Assembly: GCA_963930775.1 (NCBI GenBank)
Contig: OZ005692.1
Span: forward strand, 10,149,029-10,213,028
Direction of reading: 5' to 3'
DNA length: 64,000 nt
From: Cliona cf. orientalis
Taxonomy: Eukaryota > Porifera > Demospongiae > Clionaida > Clionaidae
The position numbers and the translations under genes were made by a program. The notes under the pieces are model-generated. The model saw only the letters and a list, made by a program, of their open reading frames with translations. It was not told where the DNA came from and made no database searches. Of this stretch, positions 8,701 to 62,700 are shown in pieces; positions within the stretch are counted from its first letter, which is position 1; every line of letters begins with the position of its first letter.

Positions 8701-11700
8701 CAATAGCTTTGGCTTAGATGATATAATATTATAGTGCCACTGATTAAGATTCAATGACCACAGTGATCACTATAGTAGTGATACCAGTATGATGCATGTG
8801 AAACTAGACGGATGATTTCATGTACTTGCTTTTGATTATGTTGCCCTGTGTCCGTTATAATAGGCAGAATCTATGGGTCTTATTTCTGCTGATCATGCGT
8901 GGGTCCTTCCATCTTACTATGATCCTGACTGGTGGAAATCACCATCAAATAGTACTGCTGAATGCTCTGATGAAAAGATGAGAGAAATTCTGGAATCGGT
9001 GATTTTCATTGATACCATCAAGCTACCACCAGTGGTAAGCACACCACTCTAATCAACATCTATAATAATTATTGAGTGTAATATATCTTTACTAGGAATT
9101 GAAAGTGCAGAATTTCTATAGTAAGCTGCTAAAGAAAACAACTGATCTGTTTCGGAATCCATCCCTCACTGAGGAGGATCTGAAGCCATATCTCCTTCGC
9201 TCTAGAGCCACAAGTGCCTATGATGCTGTGACTCTCCTAGCACGGAGTGTGGGTGTGGCTTTCAATCAAAGTGGAGACAGTTGCACTGATACGAACTTGG
9301 TCCAGGTGGTATTGGATTATGAATACTTGGTACAATAAAATTAAAGATACTAAAATTTATGTGTTAATATAAGGTACTTTTGTGTACTATATATATACTT
9401 ACAGGCTTGTGAATACTGTCAATTACACTCTGCCTTCTCAAAGTGTTTCGATCTGAATATGCCTTTAGGTTGTGAAGATTGTTATGGTACTTCAGTCACA
9501 TTTACACCGGAAGATATTGCATATCTGGATCATCACCGTAATGGCTCCAAACCTGAATATTTGCTGGATTTTTATGGCCAGATTCTGTATTCACAGTTTC
9601 AAGGTACTTACGGTAGAGCTAACTCTGCATGCATGATTGCCCATATATAATCATTATTACTATCATTGCTCATAATACCGGTACATTACGTATCATGTGC
9701 ACAGTCGAACCTCTAATAATTTTAAAGGACCCTCCGAGAAAGGGACACTGTATGCTAAACCTCTCTGTTTGTGATCCCAAAATTTACCATTCCATATAAT
9801 AGTTCTATTCATTGAGAACCTCCGAGAAGAGGACAACCTCTCTATATAAGAGATAAGATAGCTGAATTTATAAGTATCCTTTGTTTGGAGGTTCGACTAT
9901 ACAATGTCATGTACCGTAGGACGGGTTTTAATTGCGTAGTTTAATAATTGCGTTCTTGTCAAGTTAGGCCAAATTGCGAATCCAATAATTGCGATGGACG
10001 ACCCCGTACCGTACTGTAGTATACGTACACGCTTATATTTGCGATTATATATATTAATAATTATTGCGAAACGTAGAAAAACTCGCAATTCGCAATTAAT
10101 AGATACTCGCAATTAAAACCCGACCTACGGTAGTACATCCATTAATTTTGTCTATATAAGAGCTTTACAACATGCCTAGATGGAGAAGAGTGTCCAATTG
10201 TTCTGTGGTGGCCAGGACTGGGTGAAGATGACTACAAAAAGGCCTACATTCCGATCAGAGATTTTGATGAGAAAATGACGTGCGTTTCTAAAAATGTGAT
10301 CCTTTCAAGGCAGGATTTTGTCAGCAACAGCAGTAAATGCTTAAAACGCTTTGATTGGCAAGGTAGTTTTATAAATACATGTCAAGCACTAAGCTATAGC
10401 TAGCTGAGCATGACAGTTCAGGCCTTTACAATTTTATTCCTTCAAATCTGTATTGAAAGCAGCCGAACTGTACTAGCACACACCCATGTAGCTAGATACT
10501 ATATATACAACATAATAATTATCATAAAACTATTGACATACAGGGTCATCCAGTCCTCCTAGCAGTCATTATCTTGATGTATTCTTCATTCCACTTGGTG
10601 GACTAATTGCTATTGGGATATTGATTTTGATTGTACTATTGGCAGCGATTCTATTGGTGATTTTCAATCTCCTCTGGCGAACACACAAGTATGTTAATTA
10701 GGTCATAAATACAGTGGAATCCCTCTTAATAGTTATTCCTTAGCTCTCTATAATAGCCATTCACCTTGTTTCCAAATGTATCACCATATGATACATGTAT
10801 AGGGGGAAAAAAACCCCTAAGGTAAGGTCACCCCAGCCATCTAATGACCAAAAATTCATCCCCAAATGGTGACTGCTATATTATGCTGCTATAGAGGGGT
10901 TCCAATTGATGTATTAGCTTGAGTTTAGACCCCCAATGCAAGGTAATATTTATTTCATATTATTGCCTTAAAAGGATTGTCAAAGCTACAAGTCCTTGGT
11001 TGAACGTGATCCTTCTATCTGGAATAATGATTCGGCTTCCGGCAACTCTGTTGCACAGTCTCTCTGCTTCCGCAAACCACTATCCTGGTTTGATGGGAAA
11101 GGATTTGACACCATTATGCAATGTATGTAAATTCTTAACAACATGTCTTACAGCCTTAAGTTTGAAAATGCCTCGCTATAATAAACTTTATTTTTAAGAT
11201 TGGTCTATGGCAGTATTACATTGGTGATGCTCTGTTTGTGGGAATACTGATTGCCAAGAACTGGAGAATCTACAGAATATTCTTCAACAAGGAGCTCAAA
11301 CAAAGGGTATACATTAATTAAGTGTTAGACTCCTGATGAGATTAGCATACCGTAGGACGGGTTTAATTGCGTAGTTTAATAATTGCGTTCTAGTCAAGTC
11401 AGGCCAAATTGTGAATCCAATAATTGCGATGGACGACCCCGTGTATACCGTACTGTATCTACGTGCACATGTTTGCGAATCTATTAATTACGAAACGTAG
11501 AAAACCTCGCAATTCGCAATTAATAGATACTCGCAATTAAAACCCAACCTATGGTAAATGTGCAATTGCATACATATTATGGGCATGCATTCATAACATG
11601 AAATTATTACTCTAGCTGTTCATGCATGCACTCTTTGTCTTGCATGCAGGGGAATAAGCTGGCAGATTATATGCTGATGGTTGGAATAGCACTAATAATG

Positions 11701-59700: not shown

Positions 59701-62700
59701 ATACTGAACTCGCTCTGTCAACCAGTTTCTCTGATTCCCCCACGTCAGCGCTGAATGAGATAATGAGAAGAAGGATCAATATCATTGTTGGCTTTTTTGG
59801 ACCTGAAAATGCTCGGAAAGTTTTGTGCACCGTAAGTTGATATAATATGTTACTGCGTAGCTACATGCACCTGTGTATCTGCTTGCATGTGCTAATCTAA
59901 AATTTAATGTTAAAAAAAGATTTGTTCAAGGTTATACATCATTAAATTGCTACAAAAATTTTAGCTAGTGCAAAAGGTATTTCAATATCACATTGTCTCT
60001 CTCTCACCCTCTCTCTCTCTCTCACTCTCTCTCTCCTCCCTCTCTCTCCATCAGGCTAGTTCTATGAATCTTATCTCTGATGACCACGTCTGGATTCTCC
60101 CTTCGTACTACAACCCAAATTGGTGGAAACAATCTAGAAGTGGAGCAATGAGCAGCTGTTCCGACGAACAAATGAGAAACTTTCTGGAGTCTATTATCTT
60201 TGTAGATACTGTCAAATTTCCATCAGTGGTAAGTGTTTTTATTAAAATTATGGCACCTCAAAGTATTCGATAACCTTTACCAAATTTTTGTAAGATTCCA
60301 ATTTTCGGAAAAGATCGTCACTCATATATGCTGTAAATAGAAGCATTTATTTTGTACCAAATAATGCCTGTAGGATGAATCTTTAAATGAATTTCATGAA
60401 GAGTTGCTGCCCAAGGCTCTTGATCTGTTTCCGTCCCTCACTGAGGAGGACCTGAAGCCATATCTCCTTCGCTCTAGAGCCACAAGTGCCTATGATGCTG
60501 TGACTCTCCTAGCACGGAGTGTGGGTGTGGCTTTCGACCAAAGTGAAGACAGCTGCATCGATACTAGTTTGATCCAATTAGCACTGGAGAAAGGATTCTT
60601 GGTGCGTTATTCTGTCTGATGTCTGATTTCTCGCTCTCTTTCCCTCTCCATCTCTTTCTCTCTCCCGGTGTGCATGGTGGCCTCTCTCTCTCTACCTCTC
60701 TCCCTCTCTCTCTCTCTCTCCCTCTCTCTCCCCCTCTCTCTCTTCCTCTCTCTCTCCCTCCCTCCCCTCCTCCCTCCCTCCATCCTTACTTGCATCCTTC
60801 CCCCTATAGCTGTGTGAATACTGCAGACTCCATTCTGGATGTTTCCTTGGTTACGGTACAAACATGACCAGCCATTGTATGGAGCTATGTAATCCAGACT
60901 TCACTCCTAAACTAACTGCCAAGAGCTTGGCAGAATCAAGAGCTGAATATCTCTTAAACTCTTTTGGCCAAATCTTCTACTCACAGTTCATTGGTATGTA
61001 CAAATGTATAATACCTTCTACAGTGGAAATTTTTGTTGGACAGCATAAATTTGCCTATGTGGTAATGGTCGCCATTCCTTTATGCAATCATCAGAGGATG
61101 AAAAATTTTTTTTCTTGTAGTGAAAATTTTATGAACATGTATACAGCATGAAATAAAATTAATGCTAGTGTTGCATTTATGAATTTGTGCAGATGGGATG
61201 GAGTGTCCTGTGGCTCTTCTGTGGACCTCAAGTGATGGCAACTCCTCCCCGATCTCCAACGAGCGTATTTACACTCTTGAAGAATTGGATGAGGCTCGCT
61301 GTGCTGTCAGACTGAATCTATCAAAGGAGCTATTCGCGAGAGATGGATGCCCAACGACATTTCAATGGGGAGGTATAAAAAGTATGCATACTGTAATACA
61401 CTTCGTATAATGATAGCATTGTTTGCATGACATCCCCAGCCCCCATGAATGATAATGTGTGCTATGAAGTTGAAAAATTTGCATAACATACAGGTATACG
61501 TATATGATGTAATATGTGATGTATATGATCAGGAGCTTATGATGTATATGATGTAATACATATATGATGTAATAATCATGAATAACAGTAATGCCTCCCG
61601 TGTACTATACAATCACGTAGATTCATCGGAACCTCCAATAAGTCAACGTCCAGTTCCACAATCCCTCCCACTTGAAGACCTCATCGCCATAAGCGTGCTA
61701 ACTGGCGTAGGGCTAGTGATGGCCGTGGGATTCATTGTCTTCAATGTAGTATGGAGGATGGACAAGTAAGCTACACGCTAGCCTCGTACCCAGGCCCTTT
61801 GAGGAGGAGGAGGAGAAAGGGCCTGGGTATGAGGCTAGCTACATGCATGTACATGTAGACGGCCACTAAGTGAACTGAACTAGCTATATAGCACCCTTGT
61901 TGCATGCACTACGTACCGTCAAGGGCTTATAGACTCCTAAAGGAGAAGAGGGCATGCAACTAGGGACCTCTGGCAAATTTTACAGTGAGCTAAAAATAGT
62001 AAAAAAACCTCAATATGCATAGTGAAATCCAGACAGCAGCTGTTACTATAATTAGTTACAAACCACTCTCTGATTTGAAGTTTGCTAGGTACACAGGACA
62101 GTATGGCAGTTGCATGCCCTCTTCCCCTTTGGGGTCTATAAGCCCTTGGTACCGTATAGCGGGTAGCTTTGGCGAGTATTGAATTTCGCGAAATGGCTCT
62201 CCATTGGTATTGGTAAAGTTTAAAGTTTGCCGATCGATCTAATGCTTACCGCCGGACCATATATATACTATTATTAGGTGCCCATGCATTAAGTTCATTT
62301 GGCGATCTATACTGTATGAATTTGCCAAAATTAATTAAAAAACCTCATCAAAGTTTCTCCACTGTACATGTATATTATGGTATTCACTGTCATGTATAAA
62401 TGCTAGAAATTGGATGGTTTGCATGATTCTTATCATGTGACCTGCTCTGGGAAAGGGACCATTTGGGGAAGATGGTAGCATACATGAAACAGAATCAATT
62501 TGTATCACGACAGTGTTGAACTTGCTTTCGACAAATGTGTCGGTATAGACACCAAACACAGACACGAAATACAGAGCAAGTGGATTACATGTACAGCACA
62601 TTATATACAACAAGCAAACAAAAAAATCCCAAATGGTCCCTTAGCTGATCAAGTATTATCATATTATTATTGGCTATGTTTTACAATTCTAATCTACAAT

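Follow-up and report, generated by a model that had tools for sequence, protein, structure and literature searches.

The window analysed here is a 64,000-nucleotide stretch of the genome of the sponge Cliona cf. orientalis (C4:10149029-10213028), whose forward strand carries a tandem series of seven multi-exon receptor genes, R1 to R7; the element of interest is a patch of about 100 bases, central in their exon 6, that is nearly identical in all seven, silent sites included. The initial annotation had claimed seven receptors for the array, but a search of the genome (one assembly, 216.8 Mb in 149 contigs) with the patch peptide raises the number to eight, the eighth, R8, lying just past the window end with its patch at C4:10218949 (window coordinate 69921). 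Exon blocks, including the name exon 6, were defined by homology among the eight genes without the use of transcripts, and they represent aligned parts and not entire exons. The exon 8 block was unaligned and was left out, as was R3 exon 12 from every count; the exon 12 block therefore holds seven genes and the others eight. R3 is not truncated, its exon 12 being located at about 31163-31378.

Judging from their sequences, the array genes look like class C (Venus-flytrap) receptors. Pfam, run exon by exon, provides weak backing for this assignment, from single exons and under the cut-offs: ANF_receptor matched R1 exon 1 (2.8e-4) and, in a set of 10 exon peptides of which 5 had no match, R6 exon 3 (3.8e-3) and R7 exon 4 (0.19), and 7tm_3 in that set matched R7 exon 11 (5.5e-5). 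In a genome search with 7tm_3, 150 of 413 candidates were scored and all 150 were above the cut-off. The sole Pfam matches on exon 6 (UFL1; R7 7.1e-4, R6 2.9e-4) and on exon 5 (DUF1456; 0.069) were likewise below cut-off and were taken as chance. A search of solved structures gave a single match, to an alpha-solenoid protein (E 0.22), and a search for relatives of exon 6 found none among viral contigs and two distant bacterial matches, in Geomonas (32% identity), among genome contigs.

The patch begins at the first base of TCCCTCACTGAGG, counted below as base 0, and sequence comparison places it as follows in the window.

9162..9260, forward strand, R1 homogenised patch, exon 6
18323..18421, forward strand, R2 homogenised patch
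24684..24782, forward strand, R3 homogenised patch
34838..34936, forward strand, R4 homogenised patch
43223..43321, forward strand, R5 homogenised patch, identical to R7
51092..51190, forward strand, R6 homogenised patch
60434..60532, forward strand, R7 homogenised patch, identical to R5

The starts claimed initially for the seven copies lie within 0-3 bases of these, and the identity noted between R5 and R7 holds over all 99 bases. A range of 0 to about 4 differences had also been given; bases 0-98 contain 10 variable sites in the eight copies, and any two copies (28 pairs) differ at 0 to 5 of them. Averaged over pairs without gaps, identity in 6-base bins is 0.59 immediately upstream, 1.00 at base 0 and at least 0.91 up to base 95, and at the right edge, across bases 90-113, it falls from 0.92 through 0.80 and 0.74 to 0.48.

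It is at silent sites that the patch is most clearly set apart from the remainder of these genes. Over its 32 codons and 28 pairs, 29 of 595 four-fold sites differ (5%), compared with 35/97 upstream and 42/78 downstream of it in the same exon and with 53-73% in ten other blocks (exons 1-5, 7 and 9-12), where residue identity is 36-60% as against 97% in the patch. When 32-codon windows were slid along the genes (559 of 628 possible windows reached the required 60 comparisons and 69 fell short), the lowest four-fold difference overall, 0.029, was inside exon 6, while the 442 windows clear of that exon had a median of 0.65 and a minimum of 0.286, the latter where the exon 1 tail runs on to exon 2. 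Among codons for the same residue, identical codons are enriched in the patch in all 28 pairs, which are not independent of one another (Fisher; largest p 2.3e-4, median 3.5e-8). The near-identity noted at silent sites is thus confirmed, and the drop in silent divergence is confined to the patch. The accompanying claim that the genes are strongly diverged elsewhere is mostly upheld, with the exception of the exon 1 tail of R1-R3 and exon 5 of R1-R2.

The patch looks young at silent and replacement sites alike. Its variable sites are divided between five silent ones (17, 26, 56, 81 and 95) and five that replace a residue (21, 37, 52, 90 and 96), and by NG86 the 32 patch codons, which include nine of these sites, have a mean replacement divergence (dN) of 0.015, a mean silent divergence (dS) of 0.062 and a ratio of 0.24, which is ordinary for young sequence. 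Since the two kinds of difference coexist at an ordinary ratio, the patch seems to be young and not frozen; replacements in their usual share are to be expected in a young patch but not in one whose DNA is held fixed.

The edges of the patch are sharp overall, yet they are specific to the pair compared. The 5' ends of pairwise similarity fall at 0 to -5, -13, -32 and -42/-43 and the 3' ends from 94 to 133, and in pairs that include R1, R2 or R4 the leftward similarity is gone within 5 bases of base 0. An upstream extension of about 45 bp had been described for R3, R5 and R6; it is present in those genes, but the list was incomplete, as R8 (about 42 bp) and R7 (about 32 bp) share it and in R3 it reaches the exon start, where the R3-R8 similarity ends at the intron. 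The extensions rest on the segment test described below, together with the sequence itself for R3 and the tract ends for R5 to R7.

24618..24683, forward strand, R3 5' extension, which resembles R8 as far as the exon start and R5 and R6 in part, with a 6-base length difference
43181..43222, forward strand, R5 5' extension common to R6 and R8 (about 42 bp)
51050..51091, forward strand, R6 5' extension common to R5 and R8 (about 42 bp)
60402..60433, forward strand, R7 shorter 5' extension common to R5, R6 and R8 (about 32 bp)

A GENECONV-like test on polymorphic columns, with 300 permutations for each of the 28 pairs, agrees with the conversion proposed initially, in that the best segment beats all 300 permutations in 15 pairs. 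Twelve of these segments fall within the exon 6 patch or its extensions (the start of one is the final exon 5 column in the comparison), and those of R3-R5 and R3-R8 lie entirely in the upstream extension. The other three segments are in exon 5 for R1-R2 (beginning where exon 4 ends) and in exon 1 for R1-R3 and for R2-R3; they belong to further tracts within the array, which sliding windows also pick out.

8873..9022, forward strand, R1 exon 5, R1-R2 tract, 140/150 nucleotides identical and 2/18 four-fold sites different
17866..18015, forward strand, R2 exon 5, partner in the R1-R2 tract
6034..6138, forward strand, R1 exon 1 tail, tract with R2 and R3; between R1 and R3, 1/18 four-fold sites differ as against 5/7 in the head of the exon
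13825..13932, forward strand, R2 exon 1 tail, tract with R1 and R3
22326..22427, forward strand, R3 exon 1 tail, tract with R1 and R2

In the adjoining exons 2-4 of R1 and R2, four-fold differences are 10/16, 5/10 and 7/11, and because exon 5 is alike beside these diverged exons, conversion seems to be active elsewhere in the array. A crossover at the patch that produced chimaeric genes was considered and rejected: trees built from the exons on either side of the patch agree in grouping R1-R3 and R4-R7. Their support is modest, with only a single inner branch starred, and the upstream set contains the exon 1 and exon 5 tracts.

Analysis of sequences outside the array helps to show where the silent identity belongs. 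The sole other match to the patch peptide (E up to 10; all nine candidates scored) is at C5:5074682 (L024:4000-4113) and has an in-frame stop, as does an exon 5 match beside it, so that the array's receptor family apparently has a broken copy here, made up of exons 5 and 6. It shares 20-22 of 34 residues with the eight receptors, and 9-13 of those codons are identical. As this copy keeps residues and not codons, the silent identity is a property of the linked array and not of the whole exon family, with the reservation that a copy that seems broken may have lost any function. A homologous stretch at the same place in this copy also led us to reject the insertion of a mobile patch.

A sister array of five loci, also on C5, has the YDAV motif at the matching place and otherwise mostly does not keep the patch residues (tblastx). 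Four-fold differences in this array against L029 are low in exon 5 (0.19) and exon 6 (0.21) but equally so in exon 12 (0.18), with 0.30-0.67 in exons 8-11, and there is no similarity in the intron that separates exons 5 and 6; a silent-segment test, which was poorly scaled and whose best segments span several exons, was not relied on. The outside comparison took in two C6 loci by tblastx only and left out the loci on C9, on C12 and at C4:9.14 Mb, as well as the sequence flanking the C5 copy. As a control we used twelve intronless tandem receptor frames of 543-863 residues (L032-L035; C8:1526001-1566000), aligned like the array genes, with 65 of their 66 pairs, the remaining one being too similar to use. 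Over the whole of this array, four-fold differences in 211 windows of 32 codons had a minimum of 0.49 and a median of 0.66. Two pairs show local silent-site identity, probably as a result of pairwise conversion; one such pair, although 0.47 apart overall, has a window in which 0/15 four-fold sites differ. This one control array of 12 receptors thus has pairwise tracts only and no array-wide island.

Taken together, it is in our view very probable that the patch arose by interlocus gene conversion, as a local island within a tandem array of eight receptor genes. The genes would have copied sequence non-reciprocally from one another, so that some 100 bases of central exon 6 were overwritten, along with about 30-65 more bases upstream in R3, R5, R6, R7 and R8; the larger part of every gene would have kept diverging to near silent-site saturation. 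The copying was presumably DNA-templated. Length differences and heterology on both flanks could block longer tracts and so confine the copying, and the conserved flytrap helix could hold the core similar enough for pairing. Co-linear homology between the length-variable edges may help to fix the choice of patch, and a shared interface, as has been proposed for TLR1/TLR6, may be another part of that choice. The initial suggestion of a conversion hotspot divides into two. Conversion itself is favoured by the local silent dip, the ordinary dN/dS, the varying ends, the other tracts and an outside copy that lacks silent conservation, but persistence is not, 8 of the 10 variable sites being private to a single copy and 26 and 96 alone being shared, a pattern that also fits a single recent round of spread.

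Several observations weigh against conversion as a full account. Conversion and constraint on the DNA were weighed within one species and one assembly. About 100 bp of homology amid strongly diverged flanks falls short of the ~200 bp that yeast and rodents are said to need for conversion to be efficient (PMC3924818), and the lack of an array-wide island in the control means that conversion alone leaves the presence of one here unaccounted for. In the polymorphic-site test 13 of the 28 pairs fail to beat all permutations, although homogenisation of all the copies lowers the power of the test and may account for some of these misses. Finally, GC content at four-fold sites is 0.55 in the patch, slightly more than the 0.37-0.49 of the ten other blocks, but at third codon positions (GC3) it is 0.50 compared with 0.37-0.51 in those blocks; with GC3 within range and eight copies counting as about one sample, a GC-rise signature was not shown.

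The alternative that survives best is one burst, selected or by chance, that spread a single version of the patch to all eight genes. This would still be conversion, and its standing overlaps with that of the favoured reading; we regard it as a possible but less probable course of events, to which the private variants lend support and which the differing tract ends and the exon 1 and exon 5 tracts oppose by implying more than one event. It is rather unlikely, though not negligibly so, that a self-sustaining hotspot operates below the usual minimum homology, through a sequence-directed break site or RNA-templated repair, and keeps about 33 flytrap residues common while the ligand-binding and membrane parts diversify, or that the DNA or RNA is a shared control target.

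A second job for the nucleotide sequence, as a splicing element, in RNA pairing or as a small-RNA target, with purifying selection on silent sites in each copy, was raised in the initial annotation and now appears improbable. The silent and coding identity across all eight copies and the sharp left edge at base 0 would suit it, but five replacement sites stand alongside the five silent ones, the tract ends vary between pairs, and the C5 copy, though seemingly broken and perhaps without function, does not retain codons. The searches bearing on it also gave no support. RNA structure or an RNA family was rejected on unremarkable folds of the patch (z -0.39, -0.58, -0.39 and -1.57 for four folds of three copies) and on zero Rfam matches across the window at gathering thresholds. 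An overlapping reading frame was rejected because no alternative frame is open throughout the eight copies, one minus-strand frame being open in R4 only. With regard to antisense or further copies, no 16-mer of the R7 patch occurs elsewhere on either strand of a 214 kb region, and a genome-wide DNA search, which may miss very common words, gave eight matches, all on the forward strand and all in the array. These results leave room for what may be a small-RNA target or a protein-bound element. An assembly or polishing artefact, for which the use of a single assembly without reads might speak, is most unlikely, given that every copy has its own flanks, six of the eight carry variants that are private to them or that few others have, and the genome-wide matches number one per receptor. 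Least credible is protein constraint alone on the conserved flytrap helix, which the recurrence of YDAV in five C5 receptors would fit but which was rejected on the four-fold sites, as it does not fix silent positions; beyond the motif, moreover, the patch residues are mostly unkept in those receptors, and the outside copy keeps 20-22 of 34.

Some other features lie in and near the array. The interval between exons 11 and 12 of R3 contains a long degenerate minisatellite (27465-28146; period 10, 67.5 copies) and divergent open frames of 163 residues (reverse strand) and 224 residues (forward strand) at 29094-30272, without a Pfam match and perhaps an insertion. A repeat of ~250 bp, 75-84% alike, occurs in non-coding parts of R1, R4 and R7 (about 6711-6961, 37651-37897 and 61898-62151) and looks like a small interspersed element. 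Beside the array, at 1936-5032 on the reverse strand, two large open frames of 618 and 395 residues are possibly a mobile element; the first has a weak C-terminal Spin/Ssty match slightly under the cut-off (E 2.3e-5, 24.5 bits), and the second only weak matches of coiled-coil type, below cut-offs.

On the evidence of its sequence, the exon 6 island is of the same kind as two published cases, but it is shorter and bounded on both sides. In the fugu protocadherins, tandem exons are, in nucleotides, about 99% identical in their 3' parts and about 60-80% in their 5' parts, with raised GC3 (PMC1852091). As here, tandem paralogues share one near-identical region and diverge in others, which in that case is ascribed to repeated conversion; the region there covers ~250-450 codons on the 3' side, and its GC3 is significantly raised, whereas here about 33 codons have diverged flanks on both sides and no GC3 rise was shown. 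In TLR1/TLR6 a region of roughly 300 residues was homogenised independently in mammals, as compared in nine species, again amid divergence, and shared binding partners were proposed as the reason (PMC2077338); two genes are involved there and eight here, with about 33 residues in one genome. A review of interlocus conversion gives efficient homology of ~200 bp (yeast and rodents) and a usual identity of >80%, with rarer events below both (PMC3924818). The mean tracts of ~50 to several hundred bp that it reports for yeast match the length of the patch, but the island falls below the norms of that review in both its length and the similarity of its flanks. Judged from titles and the starts of abstracts, no published gene conversion in sponge receptor arrays and no published array-wide island this short were found. 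The Amphimedon catalogue contains only 33 Glutamate-family receptors, and neither 'gene conversion' nor 'tandem' appears in the main text of that paper (PMC4302439).

The island offers a clean natural case in which to ask how short a stretch of homology can be and still sustain conversion between diverged paralogues. It also bears on whether conversion holds one structural module common in a receptor array that is otherwise diversifying, and trees or dates of such receptors that are based on exon 6 would mislead.

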